A DNA stretch of 64,000 bases from positions 7,688,001 through 7,752,000 of the forward strand of contig NZ_CP077970.1 in assembly GCF_024758505.1 (NCBI RefSeq). The letters are read 5' to 3'. Position numbers and translations under genes: made by a program. The stretch comes from Bradyrhizobium arachidis (GTDB lineage: Bacteria > Pseudomonadota > Alphaproteobacteria > Rhizobiales > Xanthobacteraceae). The notes below the pieces were generated by a model that did no database searches, was not told the DNA's origin, and worked only from the letters and a program-made list of their open reading frames with translations. The number at the start of each line of letters is the position of its first letter. Within the stretch, counting starts at the first letter, position 1. Below are positions 58,552 to 64,000 of this stretch, piece by piece.

Positions 58552-59322
58552 CTACGCAGGAAGCGCAACACCGGTCAGTTCGCCCAACCTGGCGATGAGC
58601 CGGTTCTGGAACTCGGGATCAGTGGCCTCACTCGCTGGCTGCTCCCGTCGGAGGTGATGCCAGTAGAGACCCGTGACCAAGGCGGCTGGATCGTGGCTGA
58701 CGGCCAGCCAGGTCTGGGTCCGCTGCCCGGTGTCGATGTCCACCGGCGCGCTCGAGCCGCCCATCTTCGTGCGCGCCCAACCGGGGTCGACGGCGTTGCT
58801 GAAGACCTGCGGCCAGCGTCGCGCCAGCGCGAATGCGAGTGCGACCACGTGCAGCTTGCTTTCGGCGTAGGCCCGGGCCGGATCCCAGGGCCGCTTCGTC
58901 CAGTCAAGATCGCGCAGTGAACCCTCGCCACCGCGGTGCAGACCGCTACTGAGGTAGACCAGTCGACCGGGGCGTTCGATGAGCGCCGTCAGCATGTACG
59001 GCGCAAGAGTGTTTATCGCAAGGATGCCGGCGTGACCCTCTGGGCTCGAGCCGCGGCTTCGCTCCGAGTAGACGCCGGCGTTGTGGATGACCGCATCCAT
59101 CCTCCCGATCGCGTTGACCTGGTCTGCGATGCTCATGGTCTCAACGGCGCTGCGAAGATCACCGACTACGATTCCAGCGGCACGCGACGCGAGACCGGCA
59201 ATCGTTGCGGCGCGATCCGCCGATCGGGCGTGCAGCACCACTTGATGGCCGGCATCCAGAAGTGACTGCGCCGCCGCGCGTCCCAGCCCGTCCGTGCTGC
59301 CGGTTATCAAGACAGTCGCCAT
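58552..59322 (-). CDS. Short-chain dehydrogenase/reductase
   Basis: 256 residues. TGSTDGLG at about 7-14 (NAD(P)-binding), HNAGV at about 79-83, SSGLHRGG near the catalytic Ser and YAESK for Tyr-x-x-x-Lys. The pattern resembles the retinol-dehydrogenase/WWOX-like SDRs with NxDPGWARTKMGG. Stands alone, 90 bases below the LysR gene in the same direction; a shared transcript is possible. Substrate unknown. The 128 bases before it (58424-58551) show no gene. Confidence 0.9.
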   Translation of the reverse strand: MATVLITGSTDGLGRAAAQSLLDAGHQVVLHARSADRAATIAGLASRAAGIVVGDLRSAVETMSIADQVNAIGRMDAVIHNAGVYSERSRGSSPEGHAGILAINTLAPYMLTALIERPGRLVYLSSGLHRGGEGSLRDLDWTKRPWDPARAYAESKLHVVALAFALARRWPQVFSNAVDPGWARTKMGGSSAPVDIDTGQRTQTWLAVSHDPAALVTGLYWHHLRREQPASEATDPEFQNRLIARLGELTGVALPA

Positions 59323-59412: not shown

Positions 59413-60351
59413 TTACCCAACCTTCATCTGTGCTGCCGGAGTTCGATCAACCTCGGAAGCAACGTCGGTTATTATCTCGCGTAACCACGCCAGCGCCGGA
59501 TCCATGTGAAACGATGCCGGCCATTGAAGAGCCTCCCGAAATGCTGGGATACGGACTGGGGCGCGCAGCAGCTTCAACGGAAAGTTTCTCGCAAAGATGG
59601 CAGCGAGTCGATGATGCATCGTTGCGATACGGTCTGTCCCGATCACCATGGCAGCCATCGCGGTAAAGTTCGGGGCGATGACTTCGATACGTCGTCGATA
59701 ACCGAGCTGAACCAGCGCCCGTTCATCAAAGGATGCCCCGCCCATTAGCCCGAGTTGAGCCGTTATATGCCCAGCCTGAAGATAGCGCCGGAGCGAGATC
59801 GAACGGCCGATCTTCCGGTTTCCTCGCCAGGCGATGCAGCAGAATTCGTCCGTAAACAAACGTTGGCTGGGATGACCGTCAATGAGATTTGCAGCGGGAA
59901 CTACGACAAAATCGACCTCTCCCCGCTGAAGCTGTTCATCGACCCGATCGCTAAAGGGAAGGATTTCGAGACAAACCCCCGGAGCATCCCGATAGACGCG
60001 CTTCATTACGGCATGCATCAACACAATGCTCGCATAATCGGAAACGACCAGCCGAAATCGCCGTTCCGAGCTCGCCGGGTCGAATTTCGGCGGCGAGATC
60101 AAATTGGCCCGGATACGCAGCAAGATGTCCCGTGTCGGCTTTTCCAACGATTGCGCTAATGGCGTCGGCACGAGCTTTCGCCGTGAAATCGTGAAGATTT
60201 CATCGCCGAAGTACTGACGCAATCTTCCAATGGCGGCACTCATCGCCGGCTGGCTCAGATGAAGGCGCCGACTGGCTCCCATGACACTGCGCTCTTCAAG
60301 GATCGCATCGAGAGCGATCAGGAGGTTGAGGTCCAAGCCTTCGAAGCGCAT
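59413..60351 (-). CDS. NodD-like LysR family transcriptional regulator
   Basis: 312 residues. The N-terminal HTH opens MRFEGLDLNLLIALDAILEERSV and includes LHLSQPAMSAAIGRLRQYFGDEIF, VPTPLAQSL; this wording is the same as in NodD proteins (NLLxALDAL..., LSQPAMSAAxxRLRxYFxDxLF). The sensor domain keeps NodD-like landmarks: RRFRLVVSDY, LEILPFSDRVDEQLQRGEVDFVVVPA, RRRIEVIAPNFTAMAAMVIGTDRIATMHHRLA, and ALQWPASFHMDPALAWLREII. ATG at 60351 lies 8 bases from a nod-box-like sequence. NodD proteins respond to flavonoids; this one is divergent from a flavin-monooxygenase operon, not nod genes, so it is probably a catabolic relative (compare LinR and PcpR). Confidence 0.9.
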   Translation of the reverse strand: MRFEGLDLNLLIALDAILEERSVMGASRRLHLSQPAMSAAIGRLRQYFGDEIFTISRRKLVPTPLAQSLEKPTRDILLRIRANLISPPKFDPASSERRFRLVVSDYASIVLMHAVMKRVYRDAPGVCLEILPFSDRVDEQLQRGEVDFVVVPAANLIDGHPSQRLFTDEFCCIAWRGNRKIGRSISLRRYLQAGHITAQLGLMGGASFDERALVQLGYRRRIEVIAPNFTAMAAMVIGTDRIATMHHRLAAIFARNFPLKLLRAPVRIPAFREALQWPASFHMDPALAWLREIITDVASEVDRTPAAQMKVG

Positions 60352-60358
60352 GGGATCA

Positions 60359-60407
60359 CATCCATGATGTAAATATCACGGATCAATATAATCGATTTTT
60401 CAAATTC
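60359..60407 (+). promoter_or_regulatory. Nod-box-like LysR operator
   Basis: The 49-bp sequence starts CATCCATGATGTA and ends ATCGATTTTTCAAATTC. Against the classical nod-box consensus it keeps the two ATC-N9-GAT modules: ATC-N9-AAT at 60360-60374 (one mismatch) and a perfect ATC-N9-GAT at 60382-60396, with 22 bp between module starts as in the consensus. The 3' AATC(R)ATTTT core is also kept. It sits directly upstream of the NodD-like lysR start and 80 bases before the rightward monooxygenase gene. The 3' core faces the rightward operon, as in real nod boxes. Confidence 0.7.
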
Positions 60408-60487
60408 AAGGAAACCCGGATAATCGAGAACGAGCCGATCAAAGGGCCGCCAATCAAGAAACAGTCAAGCCTGGGGAGAAACACACC

Positions 60488-61528
60488 TTGATCAAGCCGT
60501 GGATTTTTGAGTTCATGCAGGCCCCGACTCCGAGCGATGAGGAGGCCCTGCCCGGCACTGTGAACACCGCATTCAACGAAGGTTACGCATTTTGGCTCGA
60601 AGCCGAACGGCTGGGGTTCGAAGGAATATTCTTCAGCGAGCATCACTTCGGCCATTCACTAAGCCCCTCCCCCAATCTCTTGATCGCAGCTCTCTCTCGA
60701 CACACCACCCGGCTGCGCCTGGGAACGATGGGAATCGTCGTGCCTTTCTACGAGCCGTGGCGCGTCATCGAAGAACTGACGATGCTCGACCACCTGACCA
60801 ATGGACGCCTCGAGATCGGCTTTGCAGCCGGCGTGCCCCAGGAATTGCAGCGGATAGGTTTGGGAATGGAGGAGGCCCGCGAACGGTTCAACGAGGCTCT
60901 GGAATTTCTCGATGCTGCCCTGATGAACCCCGTCGTCAGCCACAGCGGAAAAAATTGGAAGCTCAACAACCTCAACCTGATGCCGGGTGTCTTCCTGCAG
61001 CCCGCGCCGCCGAAATGGACGACTGTCGTCAGCACCGGGTCTGCACAGAAATCAGCTCACAGGCGATCCAAGATTTGCACCGGCTTCGAATCCGTCGCTC
61101 GCATATCGGAGATCTTCGACGTGTATCGAGGTGAATGTAACCGACTTGGACTGCCGTCGGGTCCCGATCAGCTCGCAATCCGGCGCAATGTCTCCATTTC
61201 ACGTGATGCGGCGGAGGCCCGAGAAGAAGCCCGGGCCGCGAAGGCAGCCACTCTGAAGATTGTGGCTGGCGATCCCCGCGTCGTTGACCGCGCGTCGTCG
61301 ACGCTCGATGCACCGAAAGCCGGGGCCGGATTTTCATTGCACGACGATGACTATGTCGCGGGCACGCCGGCGCAAGTGGCCGAACAAGTCATCGATCAAT
61401 GCCGCAAATGCGGTGCAGGCCATTTTCTCGCGATGCTGGGCAGGAGCACGTCGCCGCATCGCCGCGAATCGCTCGCCCTCTTTGGCGAGGAGGTAATTCC
61501 CCAAATGCGCCGCGCGCAGATCGGTTGA
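60488..61528 (+). CDS. LLM class flavin-dependent monooxygenase (luciferase family)
   Basis: 346 residues of the bacterial-luciferase fold, using reduced FMN and O2. Family blocks: GYAFWLEAERLGFEGIFFSEHHFG, SPSPNLLIAALSRHTTRLRLGTMGIVVPFYEPWRVIEELTMLDHLTNGRLEIGFAAG and DDYVAGTPAQVAEQVIDQ. The start is TTG at 60488 with GGGGAG nine bases before it. FMN reductase gene follows 121 bases down, which gives the expected two-component system. Oxidised substrate not evident; alkanals, sulfonates, amides and aromatic-ether types are all known. Confidence 0.9.
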   Translation: MIKPWIFEFMQAPTPSDEEALPGTVNTAFNEGYAFWLEAERLGFEGIFFSEHHFGHSLSPSPNLLIAALSRHTTRLRLGTMGIVVPFYEPWRVIEELTMLDHLTNGRLEIGFAAGVPQELQRIGLGMEEARERFNEALEFLDAALMNPVVSHSGKNWKLNNLNLMPGVFLQPAPPKWTTVVSTGSAQKSAHRRSKICTGFESVARISEIFDVYRGECNRLGLPSGPDQLAIRRNVSISRDAAEAREEARAAKAATLKIVAGDPRVVDRASSTLDAPKAGAGFSLHDDDYVAGTPAQVAEQVIDQCRKCGAGHFLAMLGRSTSPHRRESLALFGEEVIPQMRRAQIG

Positions 61529-61649
61529 TCGACCCGGCCGGTTGAGCACGCATCAATCGGCTCACACGCGACGATACTCCGGCATCTTCGACTGGCATTT
61601 CCGGCAGGCCCGAGGAAGCCGTCGCCACGAGACACAACTTGAGCAGAAG

Positions 61650-62264
61650 ATGATCCACGATAAACCTCTCATTGTCGGAATTGGCGGCACTCTGCGACGC
61701 GGGTCCTCATCCGAACGCGCGCTCGCGGTCAGTCTCAAGGCGGCCGAGGATAAAGGCGCCAGGACAATACTTCTGTCCGGCGCAGAACTTCTTTTGCCGA
61801 TGTATATGCCCGGGCAGCAGCAATCCGACCAGGCTTCACGTCTCCTCGCCGCGCTTCGCGAATGCCACGGCATTATTATCTCGTCGCCTGCCTACCACGG
61901 CTCCATATCAGGCTTGATCAAGAACGCCCTCGACTACGCTGAAGAACTCCGGGCGGATGCGCGCGCTTACCTCGACGGAATTCCGGTGGGCTGCATCGCG
62001 TGCGCTGGCGGGTGGCAGGCAGTGGGGCAGACATTAGCCGCACTGCGAACGATTGCGCACTCGCTCAGGGGCTGGCCCACGCCCCTGGGTGCGATGTTGA
62101 ACACGTCCACAGCCCTGTTTGACGCGGAAGGCAATTGTACCGACATGGCAACCCAGCGTCAGCTCGAGACGGTCGGGCACCAGGTGATCGACTTCGTGCG
62201 CGTGCAAGGGCTTGGCAGACAGAGAGCACCATCCATCCCGGCAGACGCAACGGTCGAGCCATAG
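61650..62264 (+). CDS. NADPH-dependent FMN reductase
   Basis: 204 residues from ATG 61650 (the 36 upstream codons are atypical). Flavodoxin-like fold: IVGIGGTLRRGSSSERALAVSLKAA with the FMN-phosphate loop, then GIIISSPAYHGSISGLIKNALDY with the isoalloxazine loop typical of NADPH:FMN reductases (SsuE/MsuE/WrbA-like). It probably supplies reduced FMN to the luciferase-family monooxygenase upstream. Confidence 0.9.
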   Translation: MIHDKPLIVGIGGTLRRGSSSERALAVSLKAAEDKGARTILLSGAELLLPMYMPGQQQSDQASRLLAALRECHGIIISSPAYHGSISGLIKNALDYAEELRADARAYLDGIPVGCIACAGGWQAVGQTLAALRTIAHSLRGWPTPLGAMLNTSTALFDAEGNCTDMATQRQLETVGHQVIDFVRVQGLGRQRAPSIPADATVEP

Positions 62265-62303
62265 TCGCAGCGTCGGGCAAACGGGATCAGCAAGGAGTTT
62301 GAC

Positions 62304-63083
62304 GTGACATTCGAAACGATGAGACTCGAAATCGACGGCGTCGACACGGTGATAAGGGTCATCGGAGAGGGCCCCGCCGTCCTGGCGCTGCACGGCGCAG
62401 CAACAATCGAGGGGCATGAATGGGCACGAGCCTTGGCCAGCAGGTTTCGGATCTATCTGCCGTTTCATCCCGGCTTCGGCGAAAGTGGGCCCGCGCCGCA
62501 TATCTGCGGGATGCAGGATTTGATTGTTCACAACCTGCGGCTCATCGCGGCACTGGGTCTGGATCGACCGCACCTCGTGGGGCATTCCATGGGCGGTTGG
62601 ATGGCGGCGGAACTTGCCGCCGTCGCCGGTGAACGTTTTGCTCGCCTGGTGCTCAATGCACCTGCCGGGCTCAATCCCCCCGATCATCGCGGCGTCGACC
62701 TCACCAAAGTCGCCCCGCAGGATTTGCCCCAATACCTGGCTCATCGAACGGAAGTCGCAGCCCGATACTTTCCTGGAGGCTCGCTTGCACCTCCGCCAGA
62801 ACAGTTCATTGCGGCTCGCGAAAGGGAAAGCCAGGCGCTGAGCAATATTCGGAAGTCCCACGGCGTGGGACACCCGAATCTGCGCCGATGGCTGAGCCGG
62901 ATACCCAACGAAACTCTGATCTTATGGGGCGACAGGGACAGGGTGGCACTAGCCAGCCAGGCAGAGCTCTGGGCGAGAGAAATCCCGAAAGCACGCGTCC
63001 ATATCGTGCCCGGTGTCGGGCACTTCGCCATGCAGGAAGACCCGAGCTGTATCACGACGATCGGCGATTTCCTCGACGGTTGA
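62304..63083 (+). CDS. Alpha/beta hydrolase
   Basis: 259 residues, GTG start at 62304 after AAGGAG. Nucleophile elbow GHSMGG, oxyanion region LALHGAATIEGHEWARALA, acid in LILWGDRDRVALA and the histidine in VPGVGHFAMQEDP complete a hydrolase triad. Related families include MhpC-type C-C hydrolases and epoxide hydrolases. In the operon it would cleave an ester, lactone or beta-diketone-like product of the monooxygenase. Confidence 0.9.
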   Translation: MTFETMRLEIDGVDTVIRVIGEGPAVLALHGAATIEGHEWARALASRFRIYLPFHPGFGESGPAPHICGMQDLIVHNLRLIAALGLDRPHLVGHSMGGWMAAELAAVAGERFARLVLNAPAGLNPPDHRGVDLTKVAPQDLPQYLAHRTEVAARYFPGGSLAPPPEQFIAARERESQALSNIRKSHGVGHPNLRRWLSRIPNETLILWGDRDRVALASQAELWAREIPKARVHIVPGVGHFAMQEDPSCITTIGDFLDG

Positions 63084-63185
63084 ACGCAAGTTGCTCGAGC
63101 CGCTCTCTTACATGGGAAACGCGAGCCTGCGGACGAGGCGAAAATCCACCACCTTCTTCCAATAACACAACCTGGGGAGACCGAC

Positions 63186-64000
63186 ATGAGGGCCATTGCA
63201 ATCGCGCTCGCTTTCGTCGTGGGCGTTATATCGACATCGCTCGCGCAGACTTGGCCCGCTCATCCGATTCGTCTCGTCGTCAACTTTCCTCCAGGAGGGG
63301 TCGCCGACCTGCTTGCTCGCCTCATAGGTCAGTCCCTCGGCGAAACCTTCGGTCAACCCGTGGTCGTCGAAAACAAGGGCGGGGCAAACGGAAATATCGG
63401 CGGAGACATGGTGGCCCGATCCGGCCCCGATGGCTACACGTTGCTCATGTCGTCAGGCGGCATGGTCGCGATCAATCCGCATCTTTATGCCAGCCTGCCT
63501 TTCGATCCGGTGAAGGATCTTGTTCCCGTCGCGTCCGTCGCGCGCGTCCCCTTCTATCTCGTTATTCGCGCAGACAATCCGGCACAGGATTTCACGGCCT
63601 TTGTCGCCGACCTCAAGGCCAACCCGGGAAAGCGAAACTTCGGGTCGCCAGGGATCGGCAGCTCCCCGCATCTTGCGGGGGAAATGCTCAAGAAGATGAC
63701 CGGCACGGATGCCGTGCATGTGCCTTATCGTGGCGCAGCACCGGCGCTCAACGATCTGCTTGCAGGTCAGATCGATTTCCTGTTCGACCCCGGTATCGCC
63801 ATCGAGCACGTGAAAGCCGGCAGGTTGCGAGCCCTTGCAATCGGGAGCCTGCAACGCTCGCCGCAACTTCCTGACGTACCAACGTTGCAGGAGCTTGGCC
63901 TCGCGGGCTTTGACGCGGACGCTGTCTTCGGCGTCTATGCACCCGCCGGAACCCCGGCCGAAATCATTACTCGCCTGAATTCCGAGATTAACCGGGCGCT
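63186..64000 (+). CDS. Tripartite tricarboxylate transporter substrate-binding protein (TctC/Bug), C-terminus beyond window
   Basis: About 271 residues are visible; the family is usually near 320. Sec signal MRAIAIALAFVVGVISTSLAQ, then the Bug core WPAHPIRLVVNFPPGGVADLLAR, VVVENKGGANGNIGGDMVA, VPYRGAAPALNDLLAGQID and GVYAPAGTPAEIITRLN. It is a periplasmic receptor for an organic acid. ATG at 63186 follows GGGGAGA, 102 bases after the hydrolase stop. TctAB partners, if any, lie outside the window or elsewhere. Confidence 0.92.
   Translation, partial: MRAIAIALAFVVGVISTSLAQTWPAHPIRLVVNFPPGGVADLLARLIGQSLGETFGQPVVVENKGGANGNIGGDMVARSGPDGYTLLMSSGGMVAINPHLYASLPFDPVKDLVPVASVARVPFYLVIRADNPAQDFTAFVADLKANPGKRNFGSPGIGSSPHLAGEMLKKMTGTDAVHVPYRGAAPALNDLLAGQIDFLFDPGIAIEHVKAGRLRALAIGSLQRSPQLPDVPTLQELGLAGFDADAVFGVYAPAGTPAEIITRLNSEINRA

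Follow-up and report, generated by a model that had tools for sequence, protein, structure and literature searches.

We examined a 64,000-nucleotide window (7.69–7.75 Mb) of the one-contig, 9.43-Mb genome of Bradyrhizobium arachidis, in which a LysR-type regulator related to NodD, the protein through which nodule bacteria detect legume flavonoids, faces a flavin monooxygenase operon across a spacer that carries a nod-box-like operator, at ~7.748 Mb. The regulator gene (59413–60351, minus strand; 312 aa, with PF00126 (HTH_1) and PF03466 (LysR_substrate) domains) and a gene for an LLM-class (luciferase-like) flavin-dependent monooxygenase (60488–61528, plus strand, TTG start; match to PF00296 (Bac_luciferase) at 2e-39) diverge from a 136-bp intergenic region (60352–60487) with a GC content of 44%, compared with 64% for the window. 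The 47-bp operator (60360–60406, plus strand) begins 8 nt from the LysR start codon, points to the LLM gene, and holds two modules at a 22-bp offset: ATC-N9-AAT at 60360–60374 (ATC at 60360, AAT at 60372; one mismatch to the canonical ATC-N9-GAT) and a perfect ATC-N9-GAT at 60382–60396 (ATC at 60382, GAT at 60394). The LLM gene is followed on the plus strand by genes for an NADPH-dependent FMN reductase-like flavoprotein (61650–62264; PF03358 (FMN_red), with the frame open from a TTG at 61542), an alpha/beta-fold hydrolase (62304–63083; PF00561) and a TctC-type solute receptor (63186–64000; PF03401), whose open reading frame continues ~148 bp past the window, to about 64148. The tandem of PF00296 and PF03358 is the predicted layout of a two-component flavin monooxygenase. 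A sequence-only reading of this stretch had described the same regulator gene, gap, two-module site and rightward genes, and our analysis recovered all of them, the operon genes through domain matches. AlphaFold models were poor (mean predicted local distance difference test 50.6 for the LLM protein and 62.6 for the regulator).

Operator and regulator

The operator was scored with a 47-bp nod-box matrix built from 15 non-redundant NodA-divergent boxes of other Bradyrhizobium genomes, with the host genome and the LLM-type loci held out. Training boxes were chosen by the classical nod-box consensus (NodA-divergent, at least 33 of 39 positions), 40 boxes giving 25 unique ones of which 15 were kept, including one (locus L137) that is off register by one base in its tail. 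At 38.9 bits, the operator was the top site of the window on both strands (next 5.6 and 0.7 bits), with a per-position p of 3.4e-14 and 6.5e-7 such sites expected per 9.43-Mb genome at GC 0.63. At GC 0.35, the per-position p was at most 4e-11 and the expectation 7e-4 per genome, and the observed score exceeded those of all 20,000 dinucleotide-shuffled versions of the gap (maximum 20.8 bits), so that the nod-box likeness proposed from the sequence alone held against both the genome and shuffled DNA. The same matrix gave 41–62 bits for sites beside nodD-type genes of other genera in five of eight reference stretches (NGR234, Sinorhizobium meliloti, Rhizobium leguminosarum, Rhizobium tropici and a Mesorhizobium), and low scores in the remaining three (Microvirga, −8; Sinorhizobium fredii GR64 nodD2, 6; Agrobacterium pusense, 18). 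Across 16 other LysR-matching loci of the host genome the best site reached 21.4 bits, 17 below the operator; it belongs to locus L005 (7286082; regulator 31% identical) and may represent a more distantly related operator of this type. The operator matches 31 of the 39 specified positions of the classical consensus, compared with 33–38 for NodA-proximal nodD boxes (25 for one with an N in the box), and on its matrix score we regard it as a divergent nod box.

The geometry also agrees with that of nodulation loci. The box lies 8 nt from the regulator start both here and in the nodD–nodA spacer of the same genome (8–12 nt in nodA-linked cases), and its orientation relative to regulator and target equals that of nodD–nodA, as joint inheritance of spacer, regulator and operator would predict. 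We conclude that the resemblance to the nod box is not due to chance. Two pattern searches were set aside in reaching this conclusion. The two-module skeleton alone, which was dropped as too permissive, occurs at 27 genome sites with at most one mismatch, three of them perfect and the operator among the 24 with one mismatch. The other pattern serves as illustration only, its free positions having been set with the box in view; it has four perfect matches in the genome, three in the nod region and the operator as the sole one outside. More nod-box-like sites (0–2 mismatches to that pattern) lie at 1264900, 1461195, 1480207, 1769215, 1817956 and 1819360 (1.26–1.82 Mb).

The regulator is at most 49% identical to NodD-type proteins and about equally distant from the NodDs of Bradyrhizobium and Sinorhizobium. 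Its winged helix is 61–68% identical to those of NodDs and of regulators linked to an MhpA-type hydroxylase (described below), 45–62% to those of non-rhizobial relatives and 39% to that of NahR, and identity outside the winged helix was 36–43%. An IQ-TREE analysis of 93 rows (LG+C20) placed the LLM-linked regulators in a single clade (100/100), sister (100/99) to 62 rows with all sampled NodDs and NodD-like proteins. Support was 100/96 for the union of these two groups to the exclusion of Massilia, Sphingobium, Novosphingobium, Azospirillum, NahR and further outside rows. When the longest branches were left out, a smaller tree again set the LLM group apart on one branch (100/99). The regulator is therefore not a NodD but a member of a clade sister to all sampled NodDs. 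A place outside the NodD clade was among the outcomes that the sequence-only reading had named as counting against it, and taken literally this is the outcome seen, although NodDs are the nearest sampled relatives of the regulator. Removal of near-duplicates took 131 rows to 93. Also dropped were L086 (frame cut at 110 aa in the assembly), L089 (433 aa, by the length filter), six regulator rows below 270 aa and four host LysR rows that the motif filter missed (L004, L006, L008 and L010), and the absent rows included host loci L009 and L011–L019 and any beta-rhizobial NodD, PcpR or LinR. Row L160 is labelled NodD2 solely because an N in its box lowered the score. A single clade of LLM-linked and MhpA-linked regulators was not rejected by the approximately unbiased (AU) test (p-AU 0.114), and a NodD-like row with no recognisable box (L145; genome G246, 1213931), which has NodA 146 kb away, branched below the MhpA-linked rows; thus, the order in which the basal lineages of the NodD side split is not fixed.

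The best Protein Data Bank (PDB) matches of the regulator, 9x6w and 9iib (E 7e-49), are labelled merely as LysR family, and are very probably NodD effector domains because S. meliloti NodD1 matches both far better (5e-115). Further PDB chains, matching at E 1e-38, are presumably of the DntR type. The neighbours of most non-rhizobial relatives of the regulator were oxygenase-type genes (L133, L134, L177, L178 and L189).

Conservation of the unit and its relation to nodulation

Orthologues of the regulator, 74–96% identical, were present in 21 of 265 genomes of the genus, with the next matches falling to 49%. They represent 22 loci, as genome G073 has two. Among 18 orthologous loci listed, the 14 that could be assigned all belonged to Bradyrhizobium, including B. 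hereditatis, B. murdochi, B. lablabi, B. jicamae, B. macuxiense, B. tropiciagri and B. retamae. No orthologue outside the genus was detected among 397 genomes of the order (genus members included; five candidates scored per genome), nor in a separate homologue search that returned 18 loci. The LLM gene was divergent from the regulator in 22/22 loci, and matches to the other operon genes were found in 19 (TctC), 17 (alpha/beta hydrolase) and 14 (FMN reductase) of them, while flanking genes varied among the 13 loci laid out. The spacer showed a clear footprint in 21 of the 22 loci (L082, with runs of N, was excluded): mean pairwise identity was 0.82 in the box vs 0.47 outside, 17/47 columns were invariant in the box vs 1/89 outside, and the most conserved 47-bp window begins at position 8 of the spacer, the box at position 9. 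Boxes of the LLM clade carry conserved bases of their own, distinct from those of nod boxes (AAATATCA, ATAATCGATTTTTCAAATT; GATCAATATAATCGATTTTTCAAATT being the usual form), and the AAT of the first module is likewise the usual form across the orthologous loci. Regulator, box and LLM monooxygenase thus constitute a conserved unit. One of the loci (L086, genome G092) has an intact box but a LysR orthologue that the assembly divides between two frames. A short-chain dehydrogenase/reductase (SDR) gene in line behind the host LysR gene (58552–59322) lacked a counterpart at E ≤ 1e-20 in all 27 other loci compared, and therefore falls outside this unit.

NodA lies elsewhere. The genome of the host, a nodulating Bradyrhizobium, had one NodA match, at 1,789,359 (1.789 Mb) beside a NodD-type gene. 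The claim from sequence alone that no nod gene is near stands for the six neighbouring genes scanned; genome-wide, NodA was the one nod gene searched for. Full-length NodA was present in 15 of the 21 circuit-holding genomes, and 134 of 257 genomes of the genus had a NodA match at E ≤ 1e-60; the association was not significant (15/21 vs 119/236, Fisher p 0.07, the two genome draws being taken as the same). A NodA match was absent from five circuit genomes (G064, G067, G233, G234 and G236), and a sixth (G125) had a weak partial match (E 1e-6) that lies over Pfam's low cut-off. These six genomes had a single NodD-type match at E ≤ 1e-60 each (8 candidates scored per genome) and retained the box at 18.4–37.5 bits. 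Consequently, the LLM circuit is not tied to nodulation.

A second circuit and the likely chemistry

A second type of nod-box circuit was found beside MhpA-type flavin adenine dinucleotide (FAD)-dependent hydroxylases (loci L087–L092 and L202–L209). Hydroxylases at least 74% identical to that of locus L091 occurred in 9/257 genomes, all nine divergent from a NodD-type regulator that is 46–49% identical to the LLM-linked one, and eight of the nine genomes (G222, G084, G069, G109, G191, G196, G113 and G054) had a nod box of 33.8–58.1 bits. An alpha/beta hydrolase gene follows the hydroxylase in L089 and L091. In genome G191, this circuit lies ~13 kb from the LLM circuit, while G084 and G222 had weak, partial NodA matches only (E 3e-5). 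In the tree, five MhpA-linked regulators and that of the host copy branched just outside a 55-row group holding the nodA-linked NodDs (100/98). The host copy, the ninth, at 1.743 Mb (1741000–1746000; L175, L210), has decayed: its hydroxylase is split between frames and interrupted by an internal stop, its operator lacks the middle, and its regulator frame is open. The idea that this NodD-like gene is broken by a TGA was dropped, given that its open reading frame encodes 302 aa and the stop probably marks where it ends.

Genes downstream of the LLM operon give some indication of its chemistry. In the two nearest relatives, G190 and G191, the genes that come next on the operon strand encode an aromatic-ring hydroxylase, an intradiol dioxygenase, with PnpC and hydroxyquinol 1,2-dioxygenase as best structure matches, and a maleylacetate reductase (the proteins of G191 were scanned; the G190 counterparts are 93–95% identical). 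G090 and G065 carry, downstream and on the same strand, a dioxygenase/reductase pair 60–66% identical to these. Overall, hydroxylation and ring-cleavage genes were directly downstream in 2/22 loci, with a ring-cleavage gene nearby in two more. The hydroxyquinol dioxygenase and maleylacetate reductase genes in L066, L067, L080 and L082 come in two versions in two sublineages, as if separately recruited. Homologues of the LLM protein in Paraburkholderia sprentiae (47% identical) and Novosphingobium pentaromativorans (41%) lie among Rieske, FAA-hydrolase and protocatechuate-dioxygenase genes. On the plasmid of N. pentaromativorans US6-1 (L189), a LysR protein of the same branch is encoded two genes from the LLM homologue, with sulfatase, glycoside hydrolase family 3 and protocatechuate dioxygenase genes around it. 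In S. fredii GR64 (L185), genes for an LLM oxidoreductase and an SDR lie directly upstream of nodD2 on the same strand; an equivalence of that LLM protein with the one studied here was discarded, as the two are only 37% identical over 150 aa. On balance, gene neighbourhoods suggest that the substrate of the LLM operon is aromatic. An isoflavonoid would be our guess, because hydroxyquinol would be expected from a resorcinol-type A ring.

Interpretation, alternatives and significance

We propose, with a probability of roughly 0.7, that the locus is a chromosomal switch in which a LysR regulator from the sister clade of NodD acts through a variant nod box to drive a monooxygenase operon for the probable breakdown of a phenolic compound. 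By analogy with NodD, the regulator most likely occupies both ATC-N9-GAT-like modules as a dimer of dimers, and would repress its own gene, given that the box begins so close to its start codon. A small aromatic ligand would change the bend of the DNA and thereby activate the divergent operon. The operon would produce a reduced-flavin-dependent monooxygenase, accompanied in most loci by an FMN reductase, a hydrolase and a receptor of the periplasm, and may function in the breakdown of a phenolic that is probably plant-derived and that some relatives might channel into a hydroxyquinol/maleylacetate route. The circuit as read from the sequence alone therefore stands in its NodD-like regulator, operator and divergent operon, with strong support from matrix score, footprint and synteny, while the regulator itself is not a NodD; the proposed sensing and degradation of an aromatic or flavonoid-like compound gain some support from the hydroxyquinol-pathway genes downstream.

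Several observations weigh against this interpretation. Hydroxyquinol genes were found near just four of the 22 loci, and none in the 19-kb stretch of the host genome, where the TctC gene is followed by genes for a GntR regulator (other strand), a tripartite ATP-independent periplasmic (TRAP) receptor, malonyl-CoA decarboxylase and malonyl-CoA synthase (L065, 10167–16845); because malonyl-CoA-type genes follow TctC, the cargo could be a carboxylate rather than an aromatic. The substrate of the LLM protein could not be read from family matches, its best NCBIfam match falling under the cut-off, and the Massilia relative of the regulator had no adjoining oxygenase. The box reached only 1.1 bits in L083, 18.4 in L084 and 27.7 in L085, of which L083 and L084 are the deepest members of the clade, and a relaxed two-module pattern was absent in 5/22 loci; thus, the box has drifted from the canonical form. 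Genome G040 encodes a 60% identical LLM homologue with neither regulator nor box nearby, as does G169 a 60% identical one with no regulator match, on a contig that starts inside that gene. Finally, the position of L145 weakens the placement of the MhpA circuits outside symbiotic NodD, though not that of the LLM clade.

Among alternative explanations, the operon may belong to the NodD1 regulon, with flavonoid-activated NodD1 binding the box and the local LysR protein serving merely as co-regulator. The score of the box, just under the range of nodD-type sites in other genera, and the full-length NodA of 15 circuit genomes would fit such an arrangement. However, six genomes without full-length NodA, or another close NodD among the 8 candidates scored per genome, still hold the box, the clade-specific bases differ from those of nod boxes, and the link between circuit and NodA is not significant, so that we regard this explanation as unlikely. 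We consider it quite unlikely that the circuit derives from a symbiotic nodD copy captured with its box beside an oxygenase operon and diverged thereafter. A NodA-bearing host genome and a box geometry equal to that of nodD–nodA are what such rewiring would leave, and the AU result for a joint LLM and MhpA clade, together with L145 below the MhpA rows, keeps the basal order loose; yet the LLM clade branches outside every sampled NodD with 100/99 support, shows about equal distances to the NodDs of Bradyrhizobium and Sinorhizobium, and persists in genomes that lack full-length NodA.

Alternatively, the box might be a generic LysR operator that resembles a nod box through ATC/ATT-type palindromes common to this branch. 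Outgroup regulators do have weaker sites of similar style upstream (best 8–14 bits; L133, L134 and L176), and one other host LysR locus, L005, reaches 21.4 bits, but none of the 16 other host LysR loci comes within 17 bits of the box, which retains an ATC-N6-AATCGATTTT core and the nodD spacing, making this explanation improbable. Chance resemblance in an AT-rich spacer, for which the low GC content of the gap and the 24 one-mismatch skeleton sites might speak, can be set aside almost entirely given the per-position p even at GC 0.35, the shuffles, and the conservation of the box among orthologues, whose footprint refutes chance.

The origin of the proposed catabolic switch is a separate matter, which the sequence-only reading had left as ancestral or rewired; the tree favours, without proving, the former. 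We tentatively suggest, with less than even confidence, that the NodD/nod-box pair predates nodulation, as an ancestral Bradyrhizobium switch for plant phenolics that would have driven flavin hydroxylases, that survives in the LLM and MhpA circuits and that symbiosis co-opted. Under such a scenario, NodD would sense flavonoids because symbiosis adopted a ready-made sensor and operator.

Known systems share parts of this arrangement. Like NodD, the nod box and nodABC, the LLM locus combines a LysR protein of the same branch with a divergent target operon and the box layout, orientation and 8-nt spacing of the host nodD; unlike that system, it has a sister-clade regulator, an LLM operon as target and NodA megabases away, and is kept in genomes without full-length NodA. 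In NGR234, y4wEFG is reportedly a nod-box-controlled non-nod locus with an LLM-like y4wF in the symbiotic NodD1 regulon. That locus likewise has a nod box before a flavin monooxygenase, and is set apart, by description, by the divergent regulator of its own that the Bradyrhizobium operon has. NahR, DntR, PcpR and LinR share the LysR architecture and the divergent control of oxygenase genes (NahR is 29.8% identical to the regulator, and the PcpR domain match is 3e-18), whereas the regulator is closer in sequence to NodD than to NahR. The Herbaspirillum fde operon is said to degrade flavonoids under the LysR protein FdeR and, compared by description only, resembles the LLM locus in pairing a LysR regulator with flavonoid-degrading monooxygenase genes; we know of no nod box there. 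To our knowledge, no nod-box circuit that pairs an LLM operon with a dedicated regulator other than NodD has been reported, although the literature was not checked.

It has long been asked how rhizobia came to recognise the flavonoids of legumes. In Bradyrhizobium, oxygenase operons stand behind NodD-type regulators and nod boxes in two conserved circuits, one of them with a regulator lineage that branches outside every sampled NodD. This suggests a use of such switches in aromatic-compound breakdown as well. These results caution that nod-box matches outside the symbiosis region are not all noise, and point to genes that may act in the breakdown of flavonoids or phenolics by Bradyrhizobium. 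Together, the LLM and MhpA circuits offer an outgroup for ligand recognition by NodD.

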